From contig NC_023135.1 in the NCBI RefSeq assembly GCF_000511355.1, forward strand, positions 3,002,371 to 3,066,370: a stretch of DNA of 64,000 bases, read 5' to 3'. Below are positions 2,096 to 60,853 of the stretch, piece after piece (position 1 is the stretch's first letter; the number at the start of each line of letters is the position of its first letter). The stretch is from Leisingera methylohalidivorans DSM 14336. Its GTDB lineage: Bacteria > Pseudomonadota > Alphaproteobacteria > Rhodobacterales > Rhodobacteraceae. A program made the position numbers and the translations under genes. The notes beneath the pieces are model-generated. The model was not told the DNA's origin and ran no database searches. It worked only from the letters and a program-made list of their open reading frames with translations.

Positions 2096-2099
2096 CGCG

Positions 2100-4161: not shown

Positions 4162-4172
4162 TTTTCAGTGGC

Positions 4173-6798: not shown

Positions 6799-6821
6799 TC
6801 GAAAGAGGGACACCGGAATAT

Positions 6822-6855: not shown

Positions 6856-6867
6856 AAAGAACGATGG

Positions 6868-7851: not shown

Positions 7852-7873
7852 GATATCCGCTCCCCTGTGCTGA

Positions 7874-45093: not shown

Positions 45094-45542
45094 ATCAATA
45101 AAACCTGCAATGGCTGCGCAGGTGGCCGCCGCTTCCGCATCCTAACCGTGGTGGAAGACTTGACCCGCGAGAATCTGGCGCGGATTGCCGATACGTCGCT
45201 GACAGGCCTGCGGGTCACGCGGGAACTGGATCGGCTGATTGTAGAGCGAGGCACACCCGGCACCATCGTTTCCGGCAACGGCACCGAGTTCACCAGCCAG
45301 GCAGTGCTCAGAGGGGGGCAGGAACCGGCATCGGCTGGCACTGCATTGCGCCAGGAAAGCCCACCCAGAACGCATTCATCGAAAACTTCAATGGTAAGCT
45401 GCGAGATGAACTCTCGCATGAAACGCTTTTCAGCTCACTGGCTGATGCCCGCCATACGCTGGAAACCTGGCAGGAGGATTACAACACCCAGAGACCACAT
45501 TCGGCGTTAGCAAATCTAACACCGAAAGAATTTGCAGAGTAA
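45094..45542 (+). pseudogene. IS3-family (IS407/IS511-like) transposase remnant with frameshift
   Basis: The C-terminal part of an IS3 OrfB integrase: GGRRFRILTVVEDLTRENLA, GTPGTIVSGNGTEFTS, then, after a one-base deletion near 45323, IGWHCIAPGKPTQNAFIENFNGKLRDEL and YNTQRPHSALANLTPKEFAE. The second catalytic Asp is replaced (SGNG for SDNG), the first Asp region is missing, and the frame is broken, so it is dead. The third acidic residue (FIENFNG) remains. Confidence 0.88.
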
Positions 45543-45778: not shown

Positions 45779-46402
45779 CTAAGTCCACATGTACCCGTAG
45801 GGCGTGATCTGCTCCATGAGCGACGCGTGGCAACTCCCTCCTCTGTCATCTGCCCCGGTGATGCGGCGCAGCCATGTACGGCCATAAACCTCAGCGTCAG
45901 ACGCATTGACACCGCTTTGGAAAATGGCTCCTTCAGCCCAAAGCCCGCCGAGCAGCGTCGCGCCGGCCAGATCGACCGGGCCATGAAACCGGGTCGCTGC
46001 ACAGGAGAAGCTTGACAGGATCTCTGCGCCCGCAAGGTCCGTCTCCTGCCGCAGCACCGCGGCGTCCAGAACGCAGGTGCCGCGCATTTCCGCGCCTCTC
46101 AGGCAGGCATCGCCACGAAACTCTGCGCCGTCGCACCTCAGATCATGGCCGAAGACGGCGCCGCCGCCGTCCAGCCCCTGTTCAAAGACGCAATCGCGGA
46201 ACCATGTCAGGCCAAGACAGGTTGCCCCGGCGAGAGTCACCCGCCCTTCAAAGACCGATCCCGTCAGGTCAAAGCCGCAAAGGGACTGCCCCGACAGGTC
46301 CAGCGCGCCAGTGATGCGGCGGGCCCTGAGATCCAGGGCCTCGCCGGGAACGAAGGGCGCGGTCAGAGCCGCGCGCAGTTCCTGCGGAGACATCGGCGTC
46401 AT
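45779..46402 (-). CDS. Pentapeptide-repeat protein
   Basis: A 207-residue protein with irregular A(D/N)LxG-type pentapeptide repeats across residues 25-170 (for example ALDLSGQSLCGFDLTGSVFEG and AEFRGDACLRGAEMRGTCVL, split here), which should fold into a right-handed beta-helix. It is unusually cysteine-rich (about nine Cys). It overlaps the Rieske oxygenase gene by 4 bp and is the last gene of the large operon. Its role in the pathway is unknown; no ribosome-protection or gyrase link can be inferred. Confidence 0.83.
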   Translation of the reverse strand: MTPMSPQELRAALTAPFVPGEALDLRARRITGALDLSGQSLCGFDLTGSVFEGRVTLAGATCLGLTWFRDCVFEQGLDGGGAVFGHDLRCDGAEFRGDACLRGAEMRGTCVLDAAVLRQETDLAGAEILSSFSCAATRFHGPVDLAGATLLGGLWAEGAIFQSGVNASDAEVYGRTWLRRITGADDRGGSCHASLMEQITPYGYMWT

Positions 46403-47451
46403 GCGCTTTCCTTCTCCGCCTCCTGGGCATCCAGCGCCTTGAAATGCTCTTTGGCGCGTTTGACCATCATCTGCCGCAGGCGGGAGACACCGATATCATG
46501 CTGGTAGAGCATCTCGCGGCGGCGGGCGTCTTCGGGGATCGATTCCAGCATGGTGCGGTCCTGTTCCAGAACATGCCAGTGACGGTCTTCGAGGCTGGCC
46601 CGGTAGAGGAAGCGCCAGCTCTCCGCCGCCACACCCTGCACCTTGCGGCAACGCCAGAAGAAGCTGTGGTGCGTGTGCTCGTCGATGGGGGTGGCGAAAC
46701 CGATGATCCGGAACGGCCCGCCCGGACCGGCGCCATCGGGGTAAGGAATATCGAGGCGGAAGAACATCACGCCCTCATCTATCACCACCTCGGTATAGTC
46801 GAAGTTCACGCCCTGTTGCGAGACGCGCTCGATCTGGAAGCCCTTCTCGCGCTTTTCAAGCTTCATGGTGTCCTGTTTCGACCCGTAGGCAAGGGTGAAA
46901 CTGTCCGCATGCAGATAGGAGGCGTGCATCGGGTCGGCTGCGTTGTCGAGGCTGAAGCGGTAGTTGCAGTCCCAGTGGGTCATGCAGGGGAAGACCTGCC
47001 ATTCATCCGAGACGAACTCTTCCGGCGGGGTGAACTCGGGCGCTTCGGGCCGGTCGGCGGAAGGCAGGTAGATGAACACCGCGCCGCCTGCTTCTGCGGT
47101 CTCGTACGAGGTCAGCGCCTTGCGGCCTTCCAGGGCGCATTCCGGCATCGCGGGCACCCGCACCACGGTGCCGGTGCCATCCACTGTTACACCGTGGTAC
47201 CAGCAGGCGATGTGGTCGCCATGAACACGTCCCAGCGACAGTTTTGCGCCGCGGTGCGGACAGAAATCCTCGATGCAATGGACATGGCCTGCGCCATCGC
47301 GCCACATCACGAGGTTCTCACCCGCGACCCGGCGCGCCAGCGGCTTGCCCGCTTTCAGCTGCACCGAGGTGGCCACCGGCATCCAGAAGCCGCGCAGCCC
47401 CTGAGAGACGTATTCCTCGACACGATTGCGATTGCTTTGACTGTTCTGCAT
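46399..47451 (-). CDS. Rieske non-haem iron oxygenase, alpha subunit
   Basis: A 350-residue oxygenase. The Rieske 2Fe-2S ligands are Cys64, His66, Cys83 and His86 (DFCPHRG and ACWYHG). The catalytic domain has DNAADPMHASYLHAD, giving bridging Asp173 and iron ligands His176 and His181. This length and the lack of a beta-subunit gene suggest an alpha-only (alpha3) enzyme of the demethylase/monooxygenase kind rather than a two-subunit ring dioxygenase. No ferredoxin gene is near; flavodoxin and FprA-type reductase genes in the operon probably feed it electrons. Confidence 0.9.
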   Translation of the reverse strand: MQNSQSNRNRVEEYVSQGLRGFWMPVATSVQLKAGKPLARRVAGENLVMWRDGAGHVHCIEDFCPHRGAKLSLGRVHGDHIACWYHGVTVDGTGTVVRVPAMPECALEGRKALTSYETAEAGGAVFIYLPSADRPEAPEFTPPEEFVSDEWQVFPCMTHWDCNYRFSLDNAADPMHASYLHADSFTLAYGSKQDTMKLEKREKGFQIERVSQQGVNFDYTEVVIDEGVMFFRLDIPYPDGAGPGGPFRIIGFATPIDEHTHHSFFWRCRKVQGVAAESWRFLYRASLEDRHWHVLEQDRTMLESIPEDARRREMLYQHDIGVSRLRQMMVKRAKEHFKALDAQEAEKESA

Positions 47452-47463
47452 GGCTTTTCCCCC

Positions 47464-47727
47464 TCAGGCGCCGATGCCGTGTTCGGCATGCGCTGCATCA
47501 TGCGATGCGTTGATCTGTTTCAGTTCGGCTTCAAAGACCTCCAGGGTCCAGGCGCCGGCCTCGCCCGACGGACGGGTGATCTTGCGGCTGTTCAGCTCGT
47601 CCACGACTTTTTCAAAATCGTGACAGCCGGTTTCATAGATGCGCTCCAGATCTTGAGCGAACCGGGTTTCCGCATCGGTCAGCGGGCGGCCTTTGGATTG
47701 GGTGCGCAGGGCGGGATCTTGCAGCAT
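47464..47727 (-). CDS. Small recombinase-like helix-turn-helix protein
   Basis: An 87-residue acidic protein, clearly coding by its AGGAG ribosome-binding site and tight operon spacing (12 bp to the Rieske gene). The segment FEKVVDELNSRKITRPSGEAGAWTLEVFEAELKQIN resembles the LN-x-x-x-I-x-x-P-x-G-x-x-W-x-x-x-x-V-x-x-x-L motif of serine-recombinase HTH regions. No catalytic domain is present. Small proteins of this type beside Rieske oxygenases exist in other genomes as I recall; their function is unknown. Confidence 0.72.
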   Translation of the reverse strand: MLQDPALRTQSKGRPLTDAETRFAQDLERIYETGCHDFEKVVDELNSRKITRPSGEAGAWTLEVFEAELKQINASHDAAHAEHGIGA

Positions 47728-47768
47728 GGCGGTCTCCTTTGAGGGTGGGTTTCGGAAAGGCGGGCCGG

Positions 47769-48236
47769 TCAGGCCGCCTCGCTCAGTTTTTCTGCGGCAA
47801 TCGCCACGGCGGCCTCGGCCCAGGGAAAGGCCAGATCCTCGGCAAGATCGTCGCCGGAAGCGTCATGCACGATGCGTTCGCCCAATTGCGTGGCGCCATA
47901 TGAGACCAAGAGCTCCGCGAGCTTGCCGCTGCCCTGATTGAAGGTTTCGTCATATTCGCTGTCGCCCAGCCCGAAGATGGCGAAATGCACACCGCTTAGA
48001 TCAGGCGCCGCCGCCGCCATCGCCTCGGCAAAGGGCTGTGCCGAAGCCGGCAGCTCTCCGTCGCCATAGGTCGAGCAGACCAGCAGATAGAAGGCATCCC
48101 GGTCGAAATCGCCGGGGTCGAAATCTTCAAGATTCTGGCAATCCACCTCGTGGCCGCTTTCCAGCTCCGACTGGATGTCTTCGGCCAGCATTTCGGCGTT
48201 GCCGGTTTCGGTTCCGTACAGCAGGGTAATATTCAT
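47769..48236 (-). CDS. Flavodoxin
   Basis: A 155-residue flavodoxin of the MioC/CysJ-like type. The FMN phosphate loop is YGTETGNAE (residues 7-15), and the isoalloxazine loops are STYGDGELP and FGLGDSEYDETFNQG. The ATG overlaps the stop of the reductase gene by 1 bp (TGATG), so both are made together. It likely carries electrons from the FprA-like reductase to the Rieske oxygenase encoded downstream. Confidence 0.92.
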   Translation of the reverse strand: MNITLLYGTETGNAEMLAEDIQSELESGHEVDCQNLEDFDPGDFDRDAFYLLVCSTYGDGELPASAQPFAEAMAAAAPDLSGVHFAIFGLGDSEYDETFNQGSGKLAELLVSYGATQLGERIVHDASGDDLAEDLAFPWAEAAVAIAAEKLSEAA

Positions 48237-49474
48237 CAGCGCAACTCCTCGCTTGCCTTGGAAAGTGCCAGCATGCGGGCACGGGTTGAGATCTTGACGC
48301 GGCAGCGCCCCTCGGGCGCGGCGGCGGTTTCGGCGGCGTCGATCCGCTGCCAGCCTTCGTAGCTGACCAGATCCGGCAGCCCCTCCAGGATGGCGCGGCC
48401 GGGTTTGCCGCTGCCCTCTGCCGGGATTTCGGCCAGAATAGTTTTTGCCAGCGCCTGGGCATCGGCGCGGTTTTCCGGGATCGTGCCGCGCGGGCCGCGG
48501 CGGAACCAGCCGGTGGCATAGAGGCCATCATCCAGCTTGCCGCCTTCGGCGTCCTCGGCCCCCGCAACCAGCGCGTCCCGTTCCAGCGCGCCTTCGGCCC
48601 GGAACCCGATGGCGGTCAGAAACGCGGTGCAGGAAATGCGCTCTTCGCCGCCATCCGCGGTGCGGAACACGGCGGTTTCGACGCGGTCACGACCTTCCAG
48701 CGCCACCGGCGTCAGGCCAAAACGGAAGGTGACCAGGCGGCGGCCGGTGCCGTGGCCGTCGATCACGGCCAAGGCGGCGAGTTTCTTGGCGGCTTCGGGA
48801 TCATCGCTGTCTCCGGCACCTTCCACGCGGATGGTGACACCGGCCAGCTTGCCCAATTCCTTGACCATGACGGGATCGAACTTGGCCTGCCCCGCCTGCG
48901 AGCGGCCAATGATCTGCAGGCTCTCAATACCGCTGGCGGCGAGCCATGCGCTGACACCCGGCCCGGCGTCGGAGCCTTCCAGCTCTTCCGGCGTCTTGGC
49001 CAGCAGCCGCAGCAGGTCAATGGCCACATTGCCGTTGCCCATGATCACCGGATGCTTGCCCAGCCGCGGCAGATCCGCTGCCTCGGGATGCTCGTTGATG
49101 GCCTGGGTCAGCTGGCCCGAGGCATGGACACCGGCCAGATCCTCGCCGGGGATGCCCAGGCTGCGGTCGCCCGGCAGACCGGCCGCCAGCACCACCGCAT
49201 CATAGGCGGCGCGCAGATCGTCCAGCGAGATCTGTTCGTTCACAGCCAGATTTCCGATGAACCGCGCGCCCTGGCGTTCGAACAGCCGGGCAAACTGGCG
49301 GATCACCCCCTTGGTGCCCTGATGGTCGGGGGCCACGCCGTAGCGCACCAGCCCGTAGGGCACCGGCAGCTTGTCGATCACATCGACCTGCAGATCCGGC
49401 TGCGCCTTCAGCAGCGCCTGGGCCAGGTAGCAGCCCGACGGGCCTGCGCCCACGATGGCAATCTGTGCAGTCAT
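48236..49474 (-). CDS. FprA/adrenodoxin reductase-like NADPH:flavodoxin reductase
   Basis: A 412-residue FAD/NADPH flavoprotein. The FAD-binding motif is IVGAGPSGCYLAQALLKA at the N-terminus; LVRYGVAPDHQGTKGVIRQF is a hallmark of the adrenodoxin reductase/FprA group; the NADPH fold is HPVIMGNGNVAIDLLRLLAK. The C-terminal GRDRVETAVFRTADGG segment and GYEGWQRID-like end (VSYEGWQRIDAAE) also match. It overlaps the ALDH gene by 4 bp and the flavodoxin gene by 1 bp. Confidence 0.9.
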   Translation of the reverse strand: MTAQIAIVGAGPSGCYLAQALLKAQPDLQVDVIDKLPVPYGLVRYGVAPDHQGTKGVIRQFARLFERQGARFIGNLAVNEQISLDDLRAAYDAVVLAAGLPGDRSLGIPGEDLAGVHASGQLTQAINEHPEAADLPRLGKHPVIMGNGNVAIDLLRLLAKTPEELEGSDAGPGVSAWLAASGIESLQIIGRSQAGQAKFDPVMVKELGKLAGVTIRVEGAGDSDDPEAAKKLAALAVIDGHGTGRRLVTFRFGLTPVALEGRDRVETAVFRTADGGEERISCTAFLTAIGFRAEGALERDALVAGAEDAEGGKLDDGLYATGWFRRGPRGTIPENRADAQALAKTILAEIPAEGSGKPGRAILEGLPDLVSYEGWQRIDAAETAAAPEGRCRVKISTRARMLALSKASEELR

Positions 49475-50979
49475 GACGCCTCCAGCGCGGCACCGGCCCA
49501 GGGATGGGGGGCACCGCTCAGATCAACATAGATCGATTTCTGGGCCATGTAGGCGCGAATGCCCTCGCGGCCCTTTTCCCGGCCCATGCCGCTGTCCTTC
49601 TCGCCGCCAAAGGGCGTTGAGATCGAGAACTGCTTGTAGGTATTGACCCAGACGGTGCCGGTAGAAATCGCCCGACCGACCCGCCAGGCCTTGGGGAAAT
49701 CCCGGGTCCAGAGACCCAGCGCGAGACCATAGTCATTGTCGTTCGACTGGGCGATCACATCCGCCTCGTCCTCGAAGGGCAGCACGACCAGTACCGGGCC
49801 AAAGACCTCCTCGCGGCAGATCCGCGCGGTATTGGGCACCCCGGCAAGAATTGTCGGCAGGTAATAGGCGCCCTTGCCGTAGCCCTCTCCTGTTGGGGCA
49901 CTGCCGCCGCACAGGACCTCGGCCCCTTCGCTGCGCGCCATTTCGACGTAACGGGCGACGCTGTCGCGGTGATCCGGATGCACCATCGGCGCCACCTGCG
50001 TGGTCTCCTCAAACGGATGACCGACCTTCAGCCGCTTCGTCGCCTCGGTCAGCCGGGCCACAAAGTCATCGTAGACCGGCTTTTCGACAAACAGCCGGGC
50101 GCCGGCGATGCAGCTTTGCCCGGTGGAGGAGAAGACGCCGAACATTACCCCGGCAACGGCCTGATCGATATCCGCATCGGCAAAAACGATGGTCGGGGAT
50201 TTGCCGCCCAGCTCCAGCGAGACCGGCATCAGCTTTTCCGCCGCCTGTTTTGCCAGCATCCGCCCCGTCGAGGTGCCGCCGGTGAAGCTCACCTTGGCGA
50301 TATCGGGATGTTCGACCAGCAGATTGCCGATCTCGCGCCCGGCGCCGGGCAGCACCGAGAACAGCCCCTTGGGCAGCCCTGCCGCCTCGACAATGCGGGC
50401 CAGTTCGAGGCTCACCAGCGGCGACCAGGATGCAGGTTTCAGAAGCACCGCATTGCCCGCCGCCAGCGCCGGGGCCACTTTCTGCGCATCAGAGGCGATG
50501 GGCGAATTCCACGGCGTGATGGCCGCCACCAGACCCAGAGGTTCGTGGACCGACATCGTAAGCGCGGTGCCGCGCTGAGCGGTCAGGCTGTCATCGGTGG
50601 TTTCCAGCACCGCAGCGAAATAGCGGAAGGTGGCAGCCGCCGAGCCCGCGAGCGCGCCGGTTTCACGCAGGGTCTTGCCGGTGTCCCGGCTCTGGATGAG
50701 GGCGATGCGATCTGCGTTGGCTTCGATGCCATCCGCGATGGCAGAGAGATAGCGGGCCCGTTCATGCGGTTTCAGGCTGCGCCAAGCAGGGTCGGCCTGC
50801 GCTGCCTTGGCGCGGGCAATCGCCCGCAGCCCGTCTTCGCGCGAGGCGCCTTTCAGCACCCGGTTGACAGTGCCGTCGGCCGGGAAGATCGAGGTGATCT
50901 CTGCACCGGTGCCGGTTTCCCATTCGCCGCCGACAAACAGCTTGCCGTCCGGCAGGGGGATATCACTTGCATCTTTCAT
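49471..50979 (-). CDS. NAD(P)-dependent aldehyde dehydrogenase
   Basis: A 502-residue ALDH. Catalytic Cys lies in FSSTGQSCIAGARLF and the general-base Glu in MPVSLELGGKSPTIVF; the cofactor segment is ITPWNSPI and VSFTGGTSTGRMLA. C-terminal PFGGEKDSGMGREKGREGI is typical. It would oxidise a semialdehyde produced in the pathway, possibly from extradiol cleavage or from the thiamine enzyme. It begins 11 bp after the aspartate-dehydrogenase-like gene. Confidence 0.93.
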   Translation of the reverse strand: MKDASDIPLPDGKLFVGGEWETGTGAEITSIFPADGTVNRVLKGASREDGLRAIARAKAAQADPAWRSLKPHERARYLSAIADGIEANADRIALIQSRDTGKTLRETGALAGSAAATFRYFAAVLETTDDSLTAQRGTALTMSVHEPLGLVAAITPWNSPIASDAQKVAPALAAGNAVLLKPASWSPLVSLELARIVEAAGLPKGLFSVLPGAGREIGNLLVEHPDIAKVSFTGGTSTGRMLAKQAAEKLMPVSLELGGKSPTIVFADADIDQAVAGVMFGVFSSTGQSCIAGARLFVEKPVYDDFVARLTEATKRLKVGHPFEETTQVAPMVHPDHRDSVARYVEMARSEGAEVLCGGSAPTGEGYGKGAYYLPTILAGVPNTARICREEVFGPVLVVLPFEDEADVIAQSNDNDYGLALGLWTRDFPKAWRVGRAISTGTVWVNTYKQFSISTPFGGEKDSGMGREKGREGIRAYMAQKSIYVDLSGAPHPWAGAALEAS

Positions 50980-50990
50980 CGCAGAGCTCC

Positions 50991-51815
50991 TCAGATTGCA
51001 GACGGGCCGATCCGGTTGCGGATTTCCCGCAAGACGGAATAGACAGTGGAGACAGAGGTCTTGGCGTTGCCCGCCGACGGCAGATTCTCGATCCGCATGG
51101 AATAGCGCGCGAGCGGCGAGCTGACCTCGTATTCATGCATATTGCCGGGCGCGGCAGGGTCAGCGACCAGTTCGACGCGGGTGGCTTCGAACCCGGCCCC
51201 CGCGAGGGCCAGCGTTGCCGCGACATTGGCATTCTTGGGATAGGCTGTCGCCGCTTCACGGGCGTTGCCGGTGAAGAAGATCGCCCGTTCACCAAGGTGA
51301 TCAAGATCAAGCGCTTCTTCCGCCGGGGTGCCGCTCCAGGCCTTTGGCGGCTTGGTGCCGCGATAAGTCACTTCCAGCCCGCCAGCCGCGCCAAGCGCCG
51401 ACAGCAGGTCGATGCCGCCGACGGCCCCGGCCGGCAGGATCAGCCGGGCATCGCCTTCCCGGGCGGCGGCGCGAAGATCCGCGTGCAGCCCGTCATCCGC
51501 CAGCGCGCCGATAGAGACCAGGATGGTGTCCACCCCGGACCGCAGCACCTCGGGCAGATGGGCTTTGACCACCGCATGACCGGCACATTCGATCAGCAGG
51601 TCCGGCCGCGCCTCCAGCAGCGCGGGAACGGATGTGACCACCTGCCGGGCCGCGGCCAGCCCGGCGAAGTCGCGCTCAAGCCGCGCTTCGGTATCTTCGG
51701 CAAACTCCGGCAGAACCATGACGGTGAGGCTGTCCAGCGGCGCATCAAGCGTGTCGTTCAGCAGCAACAGCAGCGTGGTGGCGATATTGCCGAATCCGAT
51801 CAGTGCGAGATCCAT
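50991..51815 (-). CDS. Aspartate dehydrogenase homologue (NadX-like)
   Basis: A 274-residue Rossmann-fold protein starting MDLALIGFGNIATTLLLLLND. Family segments are DLLIECAGHAVVKAHLPEVL, LPAGAVGGIDLLSALGAAG, TYRGTKPPKAW and AYPKNANVAATLALAG. Characterised relatives convert L-aspartate to iminoaspartate/oxaloacetate plus ammonia with NAD(P). In this operon it may instead act on an amine or imine intermediate of the degraded compound. The ATG at 51815 lies 4 bp after the thiamine-enzyme gene. Confidence 0.88.
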   Translation of the reverse strand: MDLALIGFGNIATTLLLLLNDTLDAPLDSLTVMVLPEFAEDTEARLERDFAGLAAARQVVTSVPALLEARPDLLIECAGHAVVKAHLPEVLRSGVDTILVSIGALADDGLHADLRAAAREGDARLILPAGAVGGIDLLSALGAAGGLEVTYRGTKPPKAWSGTPAEEALDLDHLGERAIFFTGNAREAATAYPKNANVAATLALAGAGFEATRVELVADPAAPGNMHEYEVSSPLARYSMRIENLPSAGNAKTSVSTVYSVLREIRNRIGPSAI

Positions 51816-51819
51816 CAGG

Positions 51820-53493
51820 TTACTCCTTGTTCCCTGCGGCACCTGCAGGGGGACCGGAAAAGGCTTCGGCGAAGGGGCCGATGGCGCACATGTCGACCTC
51901 AATCACCTGCGGACCGCGGGCGGCCAGCGCAGCTTCAAGAGCGGTCCCGAAATCTTCGACGTCGGTGACCTTCCGGTGCGGCATGGCGATCGAGGCGCAA
52001 AAGGCTTCGAAATCCGGCACCGCGACCTGGGAGTAGTGACGGCGGCTGTCGTATTGAGCGTCCTGAATGTTCTGGATCACCCCGTAAGCCTGATCATTCA
52101 TCAGCACGTAGACCAGCGGCGCGTGCTCATCGACGGCGGTGATCATTTCGGCCAGCCCCAGCATGGTGCCGCCATCGCCCAGAATGGTGATTGCTTTCGG
52201 CCCGTCAGAGGCAAGCGCCGCGCCAATCCCCATCGACACACCCTGCCCGATGCCTCCCCCCAGCGCATGCACACCGAGTTTGGGGTCGGAAATCCGCACA
52301 TAACGGTTGCCGAAGGTGGAGTTCGAGATGGTGACATCGCGCACCCAGGCGTGGCCACCGCTGCTGACCTTTTCCGCCAGCACATCGGCCACCACGCTGT
52401 AGGGGCCGAGGATGTCGCGCATCCGGCCTTCGGATTGGGCGCGGGTGCGGGCGATATCGAAGGGCAGCTCCGGATCCGTGTCCAGTTTTTCCGGCAGCAG
52501 CTCCAGAAGCCGTGCCAGCGTATCGGCGGCATCGCCATGGGCGAAGACCTCAACCGGGTAGTTGCGCCCGCCCTGGCTGGCTTCGGCGTCGATCTGGATC
52601 AGCGGACGCGGCAGCGGCAGCTTGTTGTTGCGGGTCTCATTGCCGCGCAGGCGCGAGCCGGCAACGATCATCAGGTCGCAGCTGTCATAAAGCGCCGCCG
52701 CTTCGGGCGTCATGTTGAAAGCCCCAAGCGAGCCGCTCTCCTCTTCCGAAACCACAGCGCGGCCATTGGTGGAGGTCACAACACCAAAGCCCCGGCGCAT
52801 CAGTTCGGTCGCCTCTTTGCCGGCGCCGCGGGCGCCGCCGCCCAGCCAGATCATCGGCCGTTTGGCGGCTTTGACGCGCTCGGCGATCTCCTCGATGACG
52901 CTGTCAGGGGCGCGCGGCTTCTGCACTTCCGGCGCATGCACACGGGTGGCCGGATGCGCGGGCGAGCGCTGAACGTCAACAGGGATCTCAAGGCTCACCG
53001 GGCCGGAGGGGGCGGACATCGCCGACGACACCGCCGCGGTCAGCGTGCCAATGGCGCCGCCAGCATCCCACATGCGGTAGACCGCCTTGGAAACCCCGCG
53101 CAGCATCTCTGGCTGGCGCGGCACGTCATGGATGGCGGCACGGTCGCGGTCGGCGAATTCACGGTCCACCTGGGTGGTGATATGCAGTACCGGCGAGCCT
53201 GCGGTCAGCGCCTCTGCCTGCGCCCCGGCAGCGTTGCCTGCGGCGGTTCCGGTGGAGGTCATGCAGACCCCCAGGTGCCCAGTCACCCGGGCATAGGCAT
53301 CGGCCATGTTCATGGCGCCGGCCTCGCCGCGGGCAGGCACAAAGCGGATCCGGTCCTGGCGCGCCACGGCGTCGAGGATCGGCATGTTGTGGATCGAGAT
53401 CACGCCAAAGATGGTGGTCACCCCGATGTCGGCCAGGTAGCGGGCGATAAAGTCCCCGACGGTTCCCGCGTCTGCAATAGGTTCCATTTTCAT
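51820..53493 (-). CDS. Thiamine-diphosphate-dependent enzyme (acetolactate synthase/decarboxylase type)
   Basis: About 557 residues. The N-terminal PYR domain has the activating glutamate in VPARGEAGAMNMADAYARVTG; the middle domain is FAD/ADP-type; the C-terminal PP domain has the ThDP/Mg motif ILGDGGTMLGLAEMITAVDEHAPLVYVLMND (GDG to ND). It may cleave or join a 2-keto acid. GAGG lies 8 nt before the ATG at 53493; the long upstream extension to 53700 overlaps the SDR gene antisensewise in composition and is rejected. The gap to the SDR gene is 10 bp. Confidence 0.9.
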   Translation of the reverse strand: MKMEPIADAGTVGDFIARYLADIGVTTIFGVISIHNMPILDAVARQDRIRFVPARGEAGAMNMADAYARVTGHLGVCMTSTGTAAGNAAGAQAEALTAGSPVLHITTQVDREFADRDRAAIHDVPRQPEMLRGVSKAVYRMWDAGGAIGTLTAAVSSAMSAPSGPVSLEIPVDVQRSPAHPATRVHAPEVQKPRAPDSVIEEIAERVKAAKRPMIWLGGGARGAGKEATELMRRGFGVVTSTNGRAVVSEEESGSLGAFNMTPEAAALYDSCDLMIVAGSRLRGNETRNNKLPLPRPLIQIDAEASQGGRNYPVEVFAHGDAADTLARLLELLPEKLDTDPELPFDIARTRAQSEGRMRDILGPYSVVADVLAEKVSSGGHAWVRDVTISNSTFGNRYVRISDPKLGVHALGGGIGQGVSMGIGAALASDGPKAITILGDGGTMLGLAEMITAVDEHAPLVYVLMNDQAYGVIQNIQDAQYDSRRHYSQVAVPDFEAFCASIAMPHRKVTDVEDFGTALEAALAARGPQVIEVDMCAIGPFAEAFSGPPAGAAGNKE

Positions 53494-53503
53494 CTCTTCT
53501 TCC

Positions 53504-54292
53504 TCAGATTGATCGTGACAGGCCGCCGGAGACTTCCAGCTGCGCACCCGTGATGTAGCTGGCCGCATGCGAGCCCAGGAAGGTGATCGCCGCGGCGGCC
53601 TCTTCCGGGTCGCCGAGGCGGCCCAGCGGTATGCCCTTCTTACGGGCCAGATTGCCGTACCATTCCTCGCGGCTCTGGTTCTGATCCTCGCGTTCGGCAA
53701 AACGGCGGGTCCATTGGCCGGAGCCGACCATGCCCAGCAGGATCGAGTTGACCCGCACCTCCGGCGCCAATTCCACCGAGAGCGATTTCAGCAGGTTCTG
53801 CACACCGGCCCGGGCCGAGGAGGTGCAGACCATATGCGGCTCGGGCTGCAGGGCGAGCAGCGAATTGACCGCCACCACGGCGCCTTCGGCTTCATTCAGC
53901 ATCGGCAGGAAGGCCCTGAGGGGGTGGATCTGGCTGAACAGCTTCAGCTCATATTCCGCACGCCAGTCGTCGTCCGTTGTATCGGCAAAGGTCGAGACCC
54001 GCCCCTGGCCCGCATTGTTGACCAGCAGATCGCAGCGGCCGAAGGTCTGCTTCACCTCGGCGGCAAAGGCATTCATCGCTTCTGGATCGAGCACCGACAG
54101 CGCACGCGCCAGCACCCGGCCGTCGCCATAATCCCGCTTCAGCACCGACGCGACATCCATCAACCGGCCTTCGGTGCGGGCGCAGAGGGCAACATTTGCG
54201 CCTTCCTCCAGGAGCTTGCGCACGGTGGCCAGGCCAATCCCGGAAGAACCGCCGGTCACCACCGCAGTGCGGTTTGCGTATTTCAGATCCAT
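53504..54292 (-). CDS. Short-chain dehydrogenase/reductase (SDR), first of two
   Basis: A 262-residue classical SDR. Cofactor motif TGGSSGIG, NAG motif LLVNNAGQG, and an unusual active-site region: the usual Ser-Tyr-x3-Lys is not obvious, the stretch VNSLLALQPEPHMVCTSSARAGVQNLLKSL having Met-Val-Cys-Thr-Ser where Tyr-x3-Lys is expected. Catalysis may therefore differ. The ATG overlaps the VOC gene stop by 1 bp (TGATG). Confidence 0.88.
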   Translation of the reverse strand: MDLKYANRTAVVTGGSSGIGLATVRKLLEEGANVALCARTEGRLMDVASVLKRDYGDGRVLARALSVLDPEAMNAFAAEVKQTFGRCDLLVNNAGQGRVSTFADTTDDDWRAEYELKLFSQIHPLRAFLPMLNEAEGAVVAVNSLLALQPEPHMVCTSSARAGVQNLLKSLSVELAPEVRVNSILLGMVGSGQWTRRFAEREDQNQSREEWYGNLARKKGIPLGRLGDPEEAAAAITFLGSHAASYITGAQLEVSGGLSRSI

Positions 54293-55218
54293 CAGTTCGT
54301 TCCCCCGTGTTTGCGGAACTCCGGAAAGCCCGGATCCGGGCGGCCCTGCATCACCGCGCGCTGCGCCGGCGTCGGCGGGCCGGCGGTCATCCACTGGTCC
54401 ATCTTTTCCGGGTCGTCGCGCGGCCAGACCTGGGCTTCGTGGGTGGACTCGTCGATCTGCTGCAGCTCTGAAGTGAACTCGATCACAAACCCCGAGGGCG
54501 AGACGAAATAGGCAAAGGGGTTGTTGCCCGGCCCGTGGCGGCCCGGCCCCCAGGTTGGCAGATGGCCCTTCTGTTTCATCCGGCCAATGCCGCGCATGAA
54601 TTCGTCGATCGACGGCATCTCGAAGGCGACGTGGTTCACCGAAGCATAGTTGCCGCGCACCAGCGCAATCGAATGATGGTCCGAATTGCAGCGCAGGAAC
54701 ACCATCTGGTCGGCGGAGTAATCCGAGACCCGGAATCCCAGAACCTCCTGATACCAGGCCTCGCGGGATTCGAGGTCGGGGGTGTTCAGCACCACATGGC
54801 TGACCTTGCGGGGCTTGGCCCATTCCGGCGCCTCGTCAAGTTCCAGCGCATCGCAGCGGAACCGCAGGCGGCGGTTGTCGGGGTCGAGAACCTCGAAGCC
54901 GTAGCCGCCCGCATAGTCGCTGAATTCACCCAAGGGGCGCACCACATCGGCGCCCTTGGCGCTAACCTGATCGTGCAGCGCCTGCATCGAGGCGCGGTCC
55001 GGCATGGAAAAATGCACATATTCGATGCCAAAGACCGGCCCCTCTTTCAGACCATAAAGAAAGGCCTCATTGCCGGTGCCGCGCAGATAGGCGGCGCCAT
55101 CTTCCTTATGCGCAAGGTTCAGGCCCCACATGTCTTCATAGAAGGGCAGCGTGGCCGTCAGGCCCGGGCCGCGCATAACGATGCCGCGCAAACTGCCGAC
55201 TCGTACTATTTCCGTCAT
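54292..55218 (-). CDS. Extradiol-type VOC dioxygenase
   Basis: A 308-residue two-module vicinal-oxygen-chelate protein, like type I extradiol dioxygenases. Predicted iron ligands in the second module: His in RKVSHVVLNTPD, His in SVNHVAFEMP and Glu in GFVIEFTSEL. The conserved segment TWGPGRHGPGNNPFAYFVSPSGFVIEF (split by family consensus) supports ring-cleavage activity on a catechol-like or hydroxylated N-heterocyclic substrate. It overlaps its neighbours by 4 and 1 bp. Confidence 0.88.
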   Translation of the reverse strand: MTEIVRVGSLRGIVMRGPGLTATLPFYEDMWGLNLAHKEDGAAYLRGTGNEAFLYGLKEGPVFGIEYVHFSMPDRASMQALHDQVSAKGADVVRPLGEFSDYAGGYGFEVLDPDNRRLRFRCDALELDEAPEWAKPRKVSHVVLNTPDLESREAWYQEVLGFRVSDYSADQMVFLRCNSDHHSIALVRGNYASVNHVAFEMPSIDEFMRGIGRMKQKGHLPTWGPGRHGPGNNPFAYFVSPSGFVIEFTSELQQIDESTHEAQVWPRDDPEKMDQWMTAGPPTPAQRAVMQGRPDPGFPEFRKHGGTN

Positions 55219-56054
55219 TTCACAACCTCCTTGTTCCCGCTCGCGCGGCCGGGTTCAGCAAGGGCCACCAAAGCAGCGGCAAAGCCCGCGGGGTCCTGCT
55301 GGTAAAGCGCATGCCCCGCATCGGGCAGCACGGTGTAGGTTCCACGCCAATCCGGCCGCAGCGCGGCATGGACGCGTCTTGCCCCTTCGGGCGGTGTCAC
55401 GGCGTCACAGGCGCCAACGATGACATCCACTGGAACGGCGATCCGCCGGGCATCATCCAGCAACCGGCCGGAGGCGAGCATCCGCGCCGCCTGGCCGTAG
55501 CCGGGCATGCGGACTTGCGCCATATTGCGCTGCACCGCCGCAACCAGTTCCGGGCTGGCTTCGGGCTGATGCACCAGCCGGGCCGCCCGGGCAGCGGCAA
55601 AGGCTTCCGGCCCCAGAGCCTCCAGATCGCTGATCCGGGTCCGGGCCGCCGGGCTGGGCGGGCCGCCGCGGGCCATGCCATGCCCCAGCGCGGGCGAGGC
55701 CAGCAGCAGCCGGGACACCCGGTCCCGGAAGCTCGCCGCAAAGGCACCCGCGGTGAGCGCGCCCAGCGAATGGCCCGCCAGCATCACCTGATCAAGACCG
55801 AGGCGGTCCATGAAATCCAGCAGCGCCTGGGCGTAGTCGAAGGCCACCGGCCAACCGCCCTGAAGCGGCGCTGACTGCCCGTAGCCCGGTGCATTCCAGG
55901 CAATCACCCGCCAGTCCTGCGGCAGATGCGGGATCAGCGGTGCAAAAGAATGGGCGTTCGACCCGATCCCGTGCAGCAGCAGCAGGCAGGGCCCGGTGCC
56001 CGCACGTTCGGCATATTCGATGCCGCCGGACTGATATGTTGCGATCCGGTCCAT
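55215..56054 (-). CDS. Alpha/beta hydrolase
   Basis: A 279-residue alpha/beta-fold hydrolase. Nucleophile Ser is in LAGHSLGALTAG, oxyanion segment LLHGIGSNAHSF, catalytic Asp near VGACDAVTPPEGARR and His in LPDAGHALYQQDP. It resembles meta-cleavage-product hydrolases and enol-lactonases, and its position next to an extradiol dioxygenase gene fits hydrolysis of a ring-cleavage product. The ATG at 56054 overlaps the SDR stop by 1 bp; a GTG one codon earlier is possible. Confidence 0.9.
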   Translation of the reverse strand: MDRIATYQSGGIEYAERAGTGPCLLLLHGIGSNAHSFAPLIPHLPQDWRVIAWNAPGYGQSAPLQGGWPVAFDYAQALLDFMDRLGLDQVMLAGHSLGALTAGAFAASFRDRVSRLLLASPALGHGMARGGPPSPAARTRISDLEALGPEAFAAARAARLVHQPEASPELVAAVQRNMAQVRMPGYGQAARMLASGRLLDDARRIAVPVDVIVGACDAVTPPEGARRVHAALRPDWRGTYTVLPDAGHALYQQDPAGFAAALVALAEPGRASGNKEVVK

Positions 56055-56791
56055 CACGCGAACACAAAACCGTTGTTCACCGGCAGCACCTGCCCGGTGA
56101 GGGTCAGCGCCCCGCTGCTCAGCAGGAACGCCACCACACCTGTCACCTGCTCCGGCGCTTGACGGCCGGGTACGGCGCTGCGGCCGGCATAAAGGTCATG
56201 CCGCTCCACCGGGACATATTCCGTCGACTCGGTGGTCAGGATACCGGGCGCCACGGCGGTCACGCCGATGTGGCAGGGTCCCAGTTCCCGGGCCAGCGAG
56301 CGGGTCATCGAGATCACCGCGCCCTTGGAGGCGACGTAGGACATCAGGTTCGGCGCGCCCCAGATCGCCGTGTCGGAGGCGAGGTTCACGATCCGCCCGG
56401 AGCCGGAGGTTTTGAGCAGTGGCGTCATCGCTCTGATCATCAGCCAGGTCCCGCGCACATTGACGCGCTGCACCAGATCCCAGCTATCAATGGCGATCTC
56501 GTCAAAGGGGATGCCGCCGATGCCGGTGGCAATCGCGCCGTTGTTGACCAGCCCGTGCAGGACGCCGCCGGTCAGCTCCGCCGCAGCTTTGCCCATGGCT
56601 TCGATTGATGCCGGCTCTGCGAGATCGACCGGCAGGAACTCCGCACCGAGGGTCTCTGCGGTCGCCCGGCCTTCCTCTTCGAGGATATCGGCGAGGATCA
56701 GCCGGGCACCCTGTTCCGCCAAAGTTTTGGCAATCTCGGCGCCAAGACCGCGTGCGGCGCCGGTCACGATGATGTTGCGTCCGTCCAGCAT
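56054..56791 (-). CDS. Short-chain dehydrogenase/reductase, second of two
   Basis: A 245-residue classical SDR with TGAARGLG cofactor motif, VNNGAI segment, catalytic Ser in NLASDTAIWG and Tyr-x3-Lys in MSYVASKGAVISMTRSLA. The C-terminus LTGQVLPVNNGFVFA is typical. Substrate is unknown. Both ends overlap neighbours by 1 bp (permease stop and hydrolase start). Confidence 0.92.
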   Translation of the reverse strand: MLDGRNIIVTGAARGLGAEIAKTLAEQGARLILADILEEEGRATAETLGAEFLPVDLAEPASIEAMGKAAAELTGGVLHGLVNNGAIATGIGGIPFDEIAIDSWDLVQRVNVRGTWLMIRAMTPLLKTSGSGRIVNLASDTAIWGAPNLMSYVASKGAVISMTRSLARELGPCHIGVTAVAPGILTTESTEYVPVERHDLYAGRSAVPGRQAPEQVTGVVAFLLSSGALTLTGQVLPVNNGFVFA

Positions 56792-57630
56792 CAGCTTTCC
56801 GCCTTCGGAAGATAATGCAGCACGCGGTCTTCAATCCGCACCAGCACGGTGTAGAGCAGGAAACCGATCACCGTCAGCAGCACGATGGCGATGAAAACCA
56901 TCGCGGCATTGGCCTGGCCGCCGCCGTAGGAGATCAGGAAGCCAAGCCCGGTATTGCCGCCGACCAGTTCGCCGACGGTGACGCCGATCACCGCAAGGGT
57001 CGAAGCAATACGCAGCCCGGCCATCAGGTTCGGCAGGGTTGAAGGCATCTCGACCTTCAGGAAGATTCCAAAGCGCGACAGGCTATAGGCGCGGGCCAGG
57101 TTCACCAGGTCGCGGTCGACGGTGCGCATCGCCTGCAGCACGTTGACCAGCACCGGGAAGAACACGATCAGCACCGTCACCAGCAGCTTGGGGATGGAGT
57201 TGTAGCCGAACCACATGATGAACAGCGGCGCGAAGGCGACCTTGGGCGCGATCTGCAGCGCCAGGATGTAGGGCGACAGCACTTTTTCCCAGAAGGCCGA
57301 CATGCCAAGAAGATAGCCCATCACCGCGCCCAGCGCGCTGCCCACGGCAAAGCCCAGGACGGTGTAGAGTGCGGTCGACAGCGTATGGCCCAGCAGCCCT
57401 TCCTGTGCCCACATGCGCTTGGCTTCAACCAGGCAGTCGGACAGGGTCGGAATAATGAATTTCGGAACATCCAGCGCCGGCGGCAGGAACTCCCATGCCA
57501 GCAGCACCAGGGTCAGGATGCCCAAGCTGGTGATTGTGACTGGGTTCAGGGCGCGCATCGGCGAGATCCTCGGTTCGGCGGGGCATGCGGGGGGGGTGCC
57601 CCCCTCGCGGGTTTGCGTTGTATCGGTCAT
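56791..57630 (-). CDS. NMT1/SsuC-type ABC transporter permease
   Basis: A 279-residue inner-membrane permease with about six spans and an EAA loop (ARAYSLSRFGIFLKVEMPSTLPNLMAG), typical of the nitrate/sulfonate/taurine/pyrimidine importer group. A 25-residue polar N-terminal extension precedes the first span. Its start overlaps the binding-protein stop by 4 bp. It is the membrane part of the importer that opens the operon. Confidence 0.9.
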   Translation of the reverse strand: MTDTTQTREGGTPPACPAEPRISPMRALNPVTITSLGILTLVLLAWEFLPPALDVPKFIIPTLSDCLVEAKRMWAQEGLLGHTLSTALYTVLGFAVGSALGAVMGYLLGMSAFWEKVLSPYILALQIAPKVAFAPLFIMWFGYNSIPKLLVTVLIVFFPVLVNVLQAMRTVDRDLVNLARAYSLSRFGIFLKVEMPSTLPNLMAGLRIASTLAVIGVTVGELVGGNTGLGFLISYGGGQANAAMVFIAIVLLTVIGFLLYTVLVRIEDRVLHYLPKAES

Positions 57631-58601
57631 TTCACAAAGTCATTGGTGTAGAGGTCTTCGACCGGCACCGAAGTGCGCACGAGGCCGTTATCGACATAGA
57701 AGGATTGGACCTTTTCGATCCGAACAGGGTCAAAGGTGCCAAGCGGCTGATCCGGTGCTTCCGGGTAGACCAGCTCGGCATAAGAGCGCAGGATGCCTTC
57801 GATCATCGCTTCCTTGCCCGCATGCTGCGGCACTGCGGCGGTGAATTCGGCGGCAGCGGCTTTCGGGTCGGTTTGGATATCCTTTACCGCCCGCAGCACC
57901 GCAGTGACAAAGCCCTGCACCATCTCGGGCCGCTCTGCGATCACCGTATCCGAGGCGATAATGGCCTGCGCCATCGCTGGGAACACAGAGTCCACCGGCA
58001 TCTGGCCCATCTCGACGCCGGCGCCTTCGATGGCCGCGATCCATTCCGGCACGCCGGACATGGCATCAAGCTTGCCTGCGATCGACAGCTGGATAATGCC
58101 GCCCGGGCCGACCGCCTGGATGTCGGCATCCGCCTTGGTCAGGCCGGCTGACGCGAGCACGCCAAGGAGGTTGTAATAGGTGGTGTCCTGAAAGGAGAGC
58201 ACGCCGATCGACTTGCCCTTCAAGTCCGCAGCGCCGGCAATGCCGCTTTCGCTGCGCCAGGCGATCTGGGTCAGCCCGCGGCCGCCCAGCAGCGCGACGC
58301 CGCGCACCTCAAGCCCGTTGGCGCGCACCACAATCGGAGTGTCGCCGATGCCGCCGCCGAGATCGGCGTTGCCGACCGCAACCTGGGTCGCCACATCAGC
58401 GCCGCCCTTGCCGACGCGGAAGGTAACGTCGAGACCGGCGTCCTCGAAATAGCCCTTGGCCTTAGCCAGCTGGAACGGCGCAAAGGCAGGCAGGAAATCT
58501 GGTGCCGGAAACAGGTAGGTCACCTGTTCACCGGCATGGGCAATTCCCCCGGTCACGGCAATCACGGCTGCGGCAAGAACGTTTGCAAGTTTGCGTTTCA
58601 T
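57627..58601 (-). CDS. NMT1/THI5-like ABC transporter substrate-binding protein
   Basis: A 324-residue periplasmic binding protein with signal peptide MKRKLANVLAAAVIAVTGGIAHAG. The fold segments FAPFQLAKAKGYFEDAGLDVTF, VGNADLGGGIGDTPIVVRANG, GAADLKGKSIGVLSFQDTTYY and YAELVYPEAPDQPLG match the NMT1/SsuA-like group. In aromatic-degradation loci such proteins bind small aromatic acids or heterocycles; the ligand here is unknown. It starts 25 bp after the ATPase gene. Confidence 0.9.
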   Translation of the reverse strand: MKRKLANVLAAAVIAVTGGIAHAGEQVTYLFPAPDFLPAFAPFQLAKAKGYFEDAGLDVTFRVGKGGADVATQVAVGNADLGGGIGDTPIVVRANGLEVRGVALLGGRGLTQIAWRSESGIAGAADLKGKSIGVLSFQDTTYYNLLGVLASAGLTKADADIQAVGPGGIIQLSIAGKLDAMSGVPEWIAAIEGAGVEMGQMPVDSVFPAMAQAIIASDTVIAERPEMVQGFVTAVLRAVKDIQTDPKAAAAEFTAAVPQHAGKEAMIEGILRSYAELVYPEAPDQPLGTFDPVRIEKVQSFYVDNGLVRTSVPVEDLYTNDFVK

Positions 58602-58626
58602 GTCTTTCCCCTGTGGTTCTGCCGCT

Positions 58627-59394
58627 TCAAGCGGCCTGGTTTTCGAGTTTCAGATGCTTGAAGATCTGCGCGGCATAATCCGCGACCTCGGGCAACACCC
58701 GGCGTTTGAGCGGCGACTCGCGGTGCGGCAGGTCGACCTTGAGTTCGGCAACGATGGTCCCCGGGCGCTCTGAGAGCACCAGAATGCGGTCCGACATCAG
58801 CACCGCCTCCGCCAAGTCGTGGGTTATCAGCAGCGTGGTCTTGGCGGTTTCCTTGATGGTGGCGGCAAAATTGTCCTGGATGATCAGCTTGGTCTGCGCG
58901 TCCAGCGCCGAAAACGGTTCGTCCAGCAGGATGATTTCCGGATCAATGGCCAATGTGCGCGCAAGCGCCGCCCGCTGCCGCATGCCGCCGGAGAGCTGGT
59001 AAGGGTACTGTTCGCCAAAGCCTTCGAGCTGACAGTGTTTCAGCTCCTGCAGCGCCCGTTCGCGCCGCGCGGCCCTGGCAACGCCGCGGGCCTCCAAACC
59101 GAATTCGATGTTGGACAGGATCGTCCGCCAGGGCAGCAGCAGGTCCTTCTGCAGCATGAAGCCCACTTCGGCGTTGGGGCCGGTCACTGGGCGGTTGCTG
59201 ACCAGAACTTCACCGCTGGTCGGCTGATACAGGCCCGCGGTCATGCTGAGCAATGTTGACTTGCCGCAGCCCGAGGGGCCGACAACCGAGACGAATTCAC
59301 CTTCTTCAACCCGGAAATTCAGGTCGCGGATTGCAGTCAGGGTGCCTGTCGGTGTGGCGAACTGCTTAGTGACGGATCGGAATTCAAGCGTCAT
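58627..59394 (-). CDS. NMT1/SsuB-type ABC transporter ATPase
   Basis: A 255-residue ATPase. Walker A GPSGCGKST, Q-loop MLQKDLLLPW, signature LSGGMRQRAALARTLA, Walker B IILLDEPFSALD, switch LITHDLAEAV. The ATG at 59394 has GGAGG 6 nt upstream; a longer frame from a TTG at 59442 lacks this support. The start lies 1 nt after the stop of an 18-codon leader frame, so its translation may be coupled to that leader. First structural gene of the 15-gene operon. Confidence 0.92.
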   Translation of the reverse strand: MTLEFRSVTKQFATPTGTLTAIRDLNFRVEEGEFVSVVGPSGCGKSTLLSMTAGLYQPTSGEVLVSNRPVTGPNAEVGFMLQKDLLLPWRTILSNIEFGLEARGVARAARRERALQELKHCQLEGFGEQYPYQLSGGMRQRAALARTLAIDPEIILLDEPFSALDAQTKLIIQDNFAATIKETAKTTLLITHDLAEAVLMSDRILVLSERPGTIVAELKVDLPHRESPLKRRVLPEVADYAAQIFKHLKLENQAA

Positions 59395-59395
59395 G

Positions 59396-59452
59396 TCAGA
59401 CCTCCAGGCCGCAGCCGGCCGTGTGGCGATGCCCGTGTTCAATGATGTTCAT
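59396..59452 (-). CDS. Putative 18-codon leader peptide before the operon
   Basis: An ATG at 59452 preceded by GGGAG (7 nt spacing) opens MNIIEHGHRHTAGCGLEV and stops 1 nt before the ATPase start; its last codons contain the ATPase ribosome-binding site. Three histidines fall within five residues. The placement would couple ATPase translation to the leader. The frame is short enough to be chance, so the case rests on the good ribosome-binding site and precise junction. Confidence 0.4.
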   Translation of the reverse strand: MNIIEHGHRHTAGCGLEV

Positions 59453-59474: not shown

Positions 59475-59502
59475 TTGTTCAATATGGAACAAACTGTTCA
59501 TA
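59475..59502 (-). promoter_or_regulatory. IclR-type operator candidate, site C (operon promoter)
   Basis: On the minus strand the site reads TATGAACA-N11-ATTGAACAA, two TGAACA units 19 bp apart, 23 bp upstream of the leader ATG. The same spacing and wording occur before the NicC-like monooxygenase (59627-59654) and before the distal IclR gene (63586-63613), tying the three transcripts together. The site also contains the inverted repeat TTGTTC-N6-GAACAA. Confidence 0.65.
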
Positions 59503-59626: not shown

Positions 59627-59654
59627 TTTGAACACTATGTTATATTGTGAACAA
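59627..59654 (+). promoter_or_regulatory. IclR-type operator candidate, site B (monooxygenase promoter)
   Basis: TTTGAACA-N11-TGTGAACAA, again two TGAACA units 19 bp apart, ending 15 bp before the ATG of the FAD monooxygenase gene and overlapping its ribosome-binding region. Sites B and A also share a CT after the first unit and a central TGT. Confidence 0.65.
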
Positions 59655-60826: not shown

Positions 60827-60853
60827 AAGCTCCGGTTCCGGCCGGAGCTTTTT
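60827..60853. terminator. Bidirectional terminator between the monooxygenase and IclR genes
   Basis: AAGCTCCGG (60827-60835) and CCGGAGCTT (60842-60850) form a perfect 9-bp stem with a 6-nt loop. A T-run follows on the plus strand and a T-rich stretch (TTCTTTG) on the minus strand, so it can stop both convergent genes; it overlaps the last codon of the IclR gene. Confidence 0.85.

Follow-up and report, generated by a model that had tools for sequence, protein, structure and literature searches.

In this study, we analysed a stretch of 64,000 nucleotides from Leisingera methylohalidivorans DSM 14336 (contig NC_023135.1, positions 3,002,371 to 3,066,370), hereafter referred to as the window, which contains a fifteen-gene operon encoding an importer of the ATP-binding cassette (ABC) type, a Rieske oxygenase, a flavodoxin and a series of catabolic enzymes. 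Our results suggest that this operon and its divergent neighbours probably form a single accessory regulon that imports a nitrogen-containing, probably bicyclic aromatic acid, whichever member of that class it may be, and degrades it by the mechanism proposed below. The locus looks like a version of a widespread aromatic pathway, uncharacterised in the literature searched, whose Rieske oxygenase appears to be fed by flavodoxin. At the sequence level, comparison with related loci reveals a recurring gene set, a palindrome, mutually exclusive predicted electron donors, and a joint exchange of the genes for the Rieske oxygenase, the small protein HTH62 and a pentapeptide-repeat protein.

A preliminary description of this DNA had proposed a one-directional operon of fifteen genes, and we found every gene and junction that it listed. 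All fifteen share the minus strand and are read from 59394 to 45779 (Table 1), separated by six gaps (25, 16, 4, 11, 41 and 12 bp) or joined by eight overlaps. These measure 4 bp at the junctions binding protein/permease, SDR1/hydrolase, hydrolase/VOC, aldehyde dehydrogenase (ALDH)/FprA and Rieske/pentapeptide, and 1 bp at permease/SDR1, VOC/SDR2 and FprA/flavodoxin. The gene names given earlier agree with Pfam and NCBIfam, the "HTH protein" corresponding to PF20552 (HTH_62, here HTH62). That the genes make up a coherent catabolic set, importer included, is borne out by the relatives, where the same genes cluster again in shuffled order, far above chance. The coordinates proved too narrow: the accessory locus comprises about 18 genes, including those for a divergent FAD monooxygenase (FMO), an IclR-family regulator and a bicupin, which accompany the operon gene set in many relatives.

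The cluster is accessory, its Rieske gene being present in one of 21 members of the genus, namely the genome analysed here (829.7 bits; the best match among the other 20 reached 91.6 bits). Among the 20 best matches to the aspartate dehydrogenase homologue (AspDH) within the bacterial family, 11 have the set, fully or in its lower half, in a surrounding stretch of 20 kb; the other nine neighbourhoods contain no further gene of the set except matches to the ABC ATPase in L046. The set, whole or partial, is also found in most of 93 further loci. An alignment scan with the thiamin diphosphate (ThDP)-dependent enzyme over one genome per GTDB species yielded at least 524 relatives, of which the 80 most similar to the ThDP enzyme of the window were kept as a non-random sample, and 13 loci of the plasmid collection were picked from 478 Rieske-bearing records. 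Locus counts refer to the 77 of the 93 loci that span at least 14 kb and to an identity threshold of 40%, from which HTH62 and the pentapeptide protein are exempt. Annotated versions of the cluster occur in Pseudosulfitobacter, Paracoccus, Nitratireductor, Caballeronia and Novosphingobium, and in records labelled Acinetobacter baumannii and Klebsiella pneumoniae; in stretches from Cupriavidus, Burkholderia and Streptomyces, which come without a gene table, cluster genes were located by tblastn.

The importers vary among lineages. The lower pathway (SDR2, ThDP enzyme, AspDH, ALDH and hydrolase) recurs in most loci, VOC is present in 65/77 and the Rieske gene in 60/77. SDR1 accompanies 56 of the 60 Rieske loci but one of the 17 loci without Rieske, and HTH62 shows a similar split (49/60 versus 0/17). 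The FMO gene is distributed the other way round, being present in 16 of the 17 Rieske-less loci and in 23 of the 60 Rieske loci. This distribution makes Rieske plus SDR1, on the one hand, and FMO, on the other, look like alternative routes to the same catechol, which would then be cut by the VOC enzyme. The neighbourhood comparison, which had been proposed at the outset, thus reveals a co-occurrence of AspDH, ThDP, VOC and Rieske genes across loci, with a varying type of donor. The distribution of the genes does not support the idea that the operon had "gained" its Rieske/flavodoxin part: in flavodoxin-less stretches from Klebsiella, Acinetobacter, Caballeronia, Cupriavidus and Streptomyces, Rieske, SDR1 and HTH62 accompany the same lower pathway. 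The pathway to which the Rieske gene belongs is widespread, being found in Alpha-, Beta- and Gammaproteobacteria and one Streptomyces record. The gene does not look like a late gain; what changed among loci is the electron donor.

The Rieske alpha subunit carries the [2Fe-2S] ligand motif CxH...CxxH (CPHRG at residue 64, CWYHG at residue 83) and the mononuclear iron motif NxxDxxHxxxxH (NAADPMHASYLH at residue 170), and its best PDB matches are terminal oxygenases of carbazole dioxygenases. Within the window operon, flavodoxin and FprA are present, and there is no gene for a ferredoxin or for a reductase of the phthalate dioxygenase reductase (PDR) type. The FprA product is a full-length homologue of its family, its similarity to 1lqt spanning residues 5-404. 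Flavodoxin together with FprA occurs in 28/77 loci (27 at 40% identity; the flavodoxin of L107 matches at 38%), a Rieske-type ferredoxin with an FAD reductase in 6/77, and a PDR/VanB-type reductase in 13/77. No locus combines two of these donor types (0/77 at 40% identity); when the threshold is dropped, one doubtful overlap appears in L104, where a 33% flavodoxin match stands beside a PDR reductase.

In a tree of 63 Rieske proteins (the window and 62 of 64 Rieske loci; short matches or stops excluded the other two), two changes, the minimum, account for the three donor types, and seven are required once the absence of a nearby donor is treated as a fourth state. Like all trees in this work, it is a quick tree with Shimodaira-Hasegawa-like approximate likelihood ratio (SH-aLRT) support only. 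All 29 flavodoxin-type rows fall on one side of a branch with a support of 100, together with six rows lacking a linked donor. A single switch to or from flavodoxin would be the simplest reading of this pattern, and the oxygenase looks as though it were fed by flavodoxin and FprA instead of an iron-sulphur protein. Flavodoxin and FprA could, on the other hand, serve some other enzyme while the Rieske oxygenase draws electrons from a ferredoxin encoded elsewhere in the genome. Since 15 of the 63 Rieske rows lack a donor gene in their vicinity, unlinked donors probably occur (one of the loci scored as having none, L139, has an annotated FAD-dependent oxidoreductase). We nevertheless consider this explanation unlikely, because flavodoxin and FprA replace ferredoxin plus reductase or the PDR reductase without overlap among the 77 loci at 40% identity, and because two changes suffice on the tree. 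Moreover, we know of no other enzyme in the operon from a family that requires a one-electron donor. In excerpts of PMC12445004, PMC9615114 and PMC5209329, no flavodoxin is reported to serve as a native donor to a Rieske oxygenase, and according to one of them E. coli flavodoxin failed to support chlorophyllide a oxygenase (PMC9615114).

The history of the operon points to further parts of the Rieske system. For this analysis, 28 loci were chosen for the presence of flavodoxin and FprA; four of them form clade B and the other 24 are clade A plus L107, a locus averaged with clade A for the identities and placed outside it in the trees. The twelve other operon genes of the window show mean identities of 62-80% to the 24 loci versus 49-71% to clade B. 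The reverse is true of the Rieske, HTH62 and pentapeptide genes, with means of 83.3, 72.4 and 48.1% to clade B versus 60.7, 42.5 and 35.7% to the other 24. Likewise, the window groups with clade B in the tree of these three genes (support 100) and falls inside clade A in the core tree (100). Single-gene trees also place Rieske (100), pentapeptide (96) and HTH62 (93, not starred) with clade B, and FprA plus flavodoxin reject that grouping (approximately unbiased test, p-AU 0.018). To judge from these identities and trees, the window operon is of mixed descent, with HTH62, Rieske and pentapeptide genes from one lineage and its twelve remaining genes from another. Loci of clade A have these three genes dispersed, as the first gene, a middle gene and the last gene; in clade B and the window they are contiguous. 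A joint replacement of three dispersed genes amounts to natural-genetic evidence that their products act together, probably as one unit. The pentapeptide gene occurs in 27 of the 28 loci with flavodoxin and FprA versus 2 of the 49 others.

A palindrome appears to join the operon and the divergent FMO gene into one regulon. The exact sequence has one match in the window, between the operon and FMO, and a copy with one mismatch adjoins the FMO start (Table 1). A scan of the window allowing two mismatches returned 23 matches versus 16.8 expected, that is, no clear enrichment; across the whole genome (4.65 Mb), seven exact sites were found versus one for the control pattern. Among 27 flavodoxin-type relatives, TGTTCN6GAACA with at most one mismatch precedes the operon by no more than 400 bp in 26, the exception being L074, and 34 of the 53 motif matches in these loci fall in the pre-operon stretches, which make up 10,773 of 599,739 bp. 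In four SUP05-type loci (L081, L082, L088 and L091), the palindrome also stands 72 bp upstream of the HTH62 match, and it lies within 300 bp before FMO in 11 of the 16 FMO loci without Rieske; no copy was seen directly before the operons of ferredoxin-type loci. The palindrome looks like a conserved operator, for which the IclR protein would be the simplest candidate. HTH62 was considered as the operon regulator and is less likely in this role, since FMO has the palindrome before it even where a locus lacks HTH62, and since HTH62 travels together with the Rieske gene. A structural model of HTH62 (mean predicted local distance difference test score, pLDDT, 71) had no PDB match with E < 0.001. 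In L088 and L091, the palindrome is also found directly before genes for a tripartite ATP-independent periplasmic (TRAP) importer. HTH62 of most flavodoxin-type loci and of the SUP05-type loci has a C-terminal tail, mostly ending in GxGA, that is missing from HTH62 of ferredoxin-type and PDR-type loci; this tail may be related to the type of donor.

We propose the following mechanism, which is deduced from the gene families. NADPH would supply electrons to the FprA-type reductase, from which flavodoxin would carry them to the Rieske oxygenase; the oxygenase would produce a cis-dihydrodiol with HTH62 and the pentapeptide protein as accessory parts. SDR1 would convert the dihydrodiol to a catechol, and FMO would lead a phenolic analogue to the same compound. 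Extradiol opening is assigned to the VOC enzyme, in which the motif positions H141, H196 and E247 align with homoprotocatechuate 2,3-dioxygenase; we take these residues to be the iron ligands, the 2-His-1-carboxylate of a type I extradiol dioxygenase. SDR2, the ThDP decarboxylase and ALDH would then shorten the unsaturated 2-oxo-acid side chain to an acid, releasing CO2. Opening of the remaining nitrogen-containing ring would fall to the cupin dioxygenase and the alpha/beta hydrolase, and AspDH would turn an iminosuccinate/aminofumarate piece into aspartate, or release oxaloacetate and ammonia. The 275 PDB matches of the hydrolase include an enol-lactonase, meta-cleavage hydrolases and the N-acyl-enamine hydrolase 3kxp (1.5e-10). 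We count this last match as support for the mechanism, together with the resemblance of FMO to 6-hydroxynicotinate 3-monooxygenase.

The preliminary description had deduced a nitrogen-containing substrate from AspDH, and we also judge this likely, AspDH being a regular member of the set (present in 67 of the 75 loci that carry the ThDP gene and span at least 14 kb). Alternatively, AspDH might be nothing but a nitrogen-assimilating enzyme or an enzyme of NAD biosynthesis (NadX), acting beside a substrate without nitrogen. Members of the AspDH family do carry the name NadX, and some otherwise similar loci lack the gene. This explanation is improbable in view of its regular presence, the lack of a match in the three congeners sampled, and a NadB-like L-aspartate oxidase encoded elsewhere in the genome (440.9 bits, just under the cut-off of 452.75), because of which AspDH, the sole one in the genome, is probably not needed for NAD synthesis.

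As for the identity of the substrate, we tentatively name kynurenate, which would fit every step, with xanthurenate entering through FMO. The balance would also fit: C10 minus CO2 leaves C9, that is, 2-oxoglutarate plus a C4-N unit. In Pseudomonas, according to the enzymology of Hayaishi and co-workers in the 1960s, kynurenate reportedly undergoes dihydroxylation, dihydrodiol dehydrogenation and extradiol cleavage, followed, it is said, by reduction, 2-oxoacid decarboxylation, aldehyde oxidation and opening of the nitrogen ring. This order of reactions is the one proposed here; no operon-level link to kynurenine genes was seen at our loci. Pseudomonads convert kynurenate to glutamate, alanine and organic acids, as stated in an excerpt of PMC11354673, citing Horibata 1961. 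No gene assignment for kynurenate degradation was found in the literature searched. The most specific version of our proposal, in which a one-time donor switch to flavodoxin and FprA, with co-exchanged, obligate HTH62 and pentapeptide proteins, heads the kynurenate/xanthurenate pathway, so far lacking genes and extending over Alpha-, Beta- and Gammaproteobacteria with Klebsiella and Acinetobacter among them, seems doubtful to us.

Several observations weigh against this chain of assignments. Besides the Rieske rows without a nearby donor, there is a 28th flavodoxin-type locus, L097, which like L074 has no palindrome before its operon. AspDH was not found in 8 of the 75 ThDP loci (in L126 the match is under 40%), and in L097, L111, L113 and L114 none lies between ThDP and ALDH. 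An SDR acting as a C=C reductase would be unusual, and for none of the enzymes of the locus did we see a close homologue that has been characterised. Kynureninase is above cut-off in 21 of 42 cluster genomes (43 were asked and L095 was left out), and it lies within 25 kb of the ThDP gene in three of the 42 (L082, L088 and L089, from two lineages), with unrelated genes in between in the stretches examined. Trp dioxygenase is present in 6 of 20 cluster genomes, none of them having it within 900 kb on the same contig. Proximity to these two genes was thus unsupportive as proof of kynurenate. A sulfatase-like gene stands, by eye, beside nine loci (L081, L082, L083, L088, L091, L093, L102, L103 and L117), which hints at a sulfate ester in these. 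Finally, the molybdenum (Mo) hydroxylase of L142 was considered as a candidate quinaldate 4-oxidase; 4-hydroxybenzoyl-CoA reductase is its nearest match, and quinoline 2-oxidoreductase ranks fourth.

Some of these points belong to another explanation, in which the gene logic is the same and the substrate differs: a different N-heteroaromatic acid (quinaldate, another hydroxyquinoline), or else a sulfate ester or glycoside of an aromatic compound, freed by a neighbouring sulfatase or glycosidase, kynurenate being one member of the class. This is quite possible. By eye, several of the sulfatase-bearing loci also carry TRAP importer genes, which suggests sulfate esters in some lineages, and the differences between importers point the same way. 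In L139, from Novosphingobium resinovorum, a GH3 glycosidase and a TonB receptor (6367-8346) directly precede the ThDP gene, and the substrate may arrive there as a glycoside. A Mo-hydroxylase accompanies four loci (annotated in L142, with which the three others are grouped). Against this stands the recurrence of the lower pathway in most loci, which argues for one common central intermediate. Given the weak linkage of kynurenine genes, the sulfatase and TRAP neighbours, the gaps in AspDH and the Mo-hydroxylase result, we advance kynurenate as a working hypothesis within the broader proposal of a nitrogen-containing bicyclic acid.

The preliminary description had matched the operon to no textbook pathway, and the portions of the literature covered by our search contain no pathway composed of these genes. 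Names of homologues (858 proteins, best 120 of them) included no characterised member. Homarine catabolism was considered for Rieske oxygenases in marine bacteria, and the literature found concerns other topics; riboflavin/lumichrome catabolism uses different genes, as far as the excerpts describe it. Among known Rieske systems, those of the carbazole 1,9a-dioxygenase, VanAB and KshAB type are alike in the Rieske plus VanA_C-type catalytic domain and in linked genes for an electron chain, whereas the system described here has a linked flavodoxin, an FprA of the adrenodoxin reductase type, and the extra HTH62 and pentapeptide proteins. Flavodoxin is the native donor in the P450cin/cindoxin system, which is similar in using flavodoxin in place of an iron-sulphur ferredoxin as donor of an oxygenase; cindoxin donates to a P450, whereas the window flavodoxin is predicted to feed a Rieske oxygenase. 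In excerpts of PMC12746152, the lum cluster of Nocardioides simplex similarly unites a Rieske oxygenase, an extradiol dioxygenase, a thiamin-dependent decarboxylase and a cupin in one N-heterocycle pathway; it differs in having Rieske alpha and beta subunits, a ferredoxin and a reductase and in acting on lumichrome/riboflavin, and the word "aspartate" is absent from its text. The preliminary description had also likened the operon to a similarly ordered set around PA3504-PA3514 of Pseudomonas aeruginosa. In the literature searched, PA3505 is named in one paper, PMC9732424, where a Tn-seq table places it under nicotinate metabolism, and no paper names two of six other PA35xx tags.

If our proposal is true, it would provide genes and a regulon for an aromatic N-heterocycle pathway that, in the literature searched, is known only from old enzymology. 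The bacteria carrying the pathway come from many habitats, and kynurenate is an animal signalling molecule. The proposal would also provide a Rieske oxygenase with flavodoxin as its native donor, and ferredoxin, VanB-type and flavodoxin versions of one enzyme side by side for studying the choice of redox partners. HTH62 and the pentapeptide protein are candidate parts of the Rieske system.

Table 1. Features of the operon and its divergent neighbours (window coordinates).
Feature	Position	Strand	Remarks
Pentapeptide-repeat protein	45779..46402	-	PF13576
Rieske oxygenase alpha subunit	46399..47451	-	PF00355 1.6e-23 and PF19112 7.7e-14
HTH_62 small protein (HTH62), predicted Rieske accessory	47464..47727	-	PF20552 5.4e-14
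Flavodoxin, predicted Rieske electron donor	47769..48236	-	PF00258
FprA/adrenodoxin-reductase-type NADPH reductase	48236..49474	-	PDB: FprA 1lqt 3e-53, adrenodoxin reductase 1cjc 2.6e-48
Aldehyde dehydrogenase (ALDH)	49471..50979	-	PF00171; BADH/HpaE-like, below cut-offs
Aspartate dehydrogenase homologue (AspDH)	50991..51815	-	PF01958/PF03447; NF009828 246.7 bits and NF009827, both above cut-off
ThDP-dependent decarboxylase-type enzyme	51820..53487	-	NF005470 760.4 bits, above cut-off
SDR2	53504..54292	-	NF005468 394.9 bits, above cut-off
VOC extradiol dioxygenase	54292..55218	-	PF00903; HpaD/C23O-like, below NCBIfam cut-offs
Alpha/beta hydrolase	55215..56057	-	PF00561
SDR1, predicted cis-dihydrodiol dehydrogenase	56054..56791	-	PF13561
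ABC permease	56791..57630	-	PF00528
NMT1/SsuA-type periplasmic binding protein	57627..58601	-	PF09084 6.5e-31
ABC importer ATPase, operon gene 1	58627..59394	-	PF00005; top NCBIfam match taurine-type ATPase, below cut-off
Perfect palindrome TTGTTC-N6-GAACAA, predicted operator	59475..59492	.	Between operon and FMO
Second palindrome copy, one mismatch	59638..59653	.	Adjoins FMO start
FAD monooxygenase (FMO), divergent	59670..60806	+	Top PDB match 6-hydroxynicotinate 3-monooxygenase 6.8e-78
IclR-family regulator	60852..61640	-	PF01614/PF09339; start codon chosen by the analyst
Bicupin, predicted ring-opening dioxygenase	61740..62687	+	PF07883 in two stretches; probable bicupin fold

With regard to the divergent genes, FMO is predicted to be an alternative catechol-forming enzyme. 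Cupins are of two types that never occur together (bicupin in 23/77 loci, a single-domain cupin in 34/77, both in 0/77), and 20/77 loci have neither within the stretch. RidA-like genes, which would suit an enamine intermediate, lie by eye near L078, L124 and L130 and are annotated in L143. In the Caballeronia plasmid pNK84 (L142, 20048-23719), a xanthine-dehydrogenase-family Mo-hydroxylase encoded by three genes is located beside the Rieske, a second ThDP and the VOC gene, and the sulfatase-like gene of L088 is at 81-4547. Past the downstream end of the operon, the window contains by eye fragments resembling an IS110-type transposase C-terminus and an IS3-type integrase (43131-43844 and 45148-45510), in agreement with horizontal acquisition. 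The same region holds an AraC-family regulator (43945-44964; QhpR-like, below cut-off), and a gene 41% similar to it lies close to the operon in L053.

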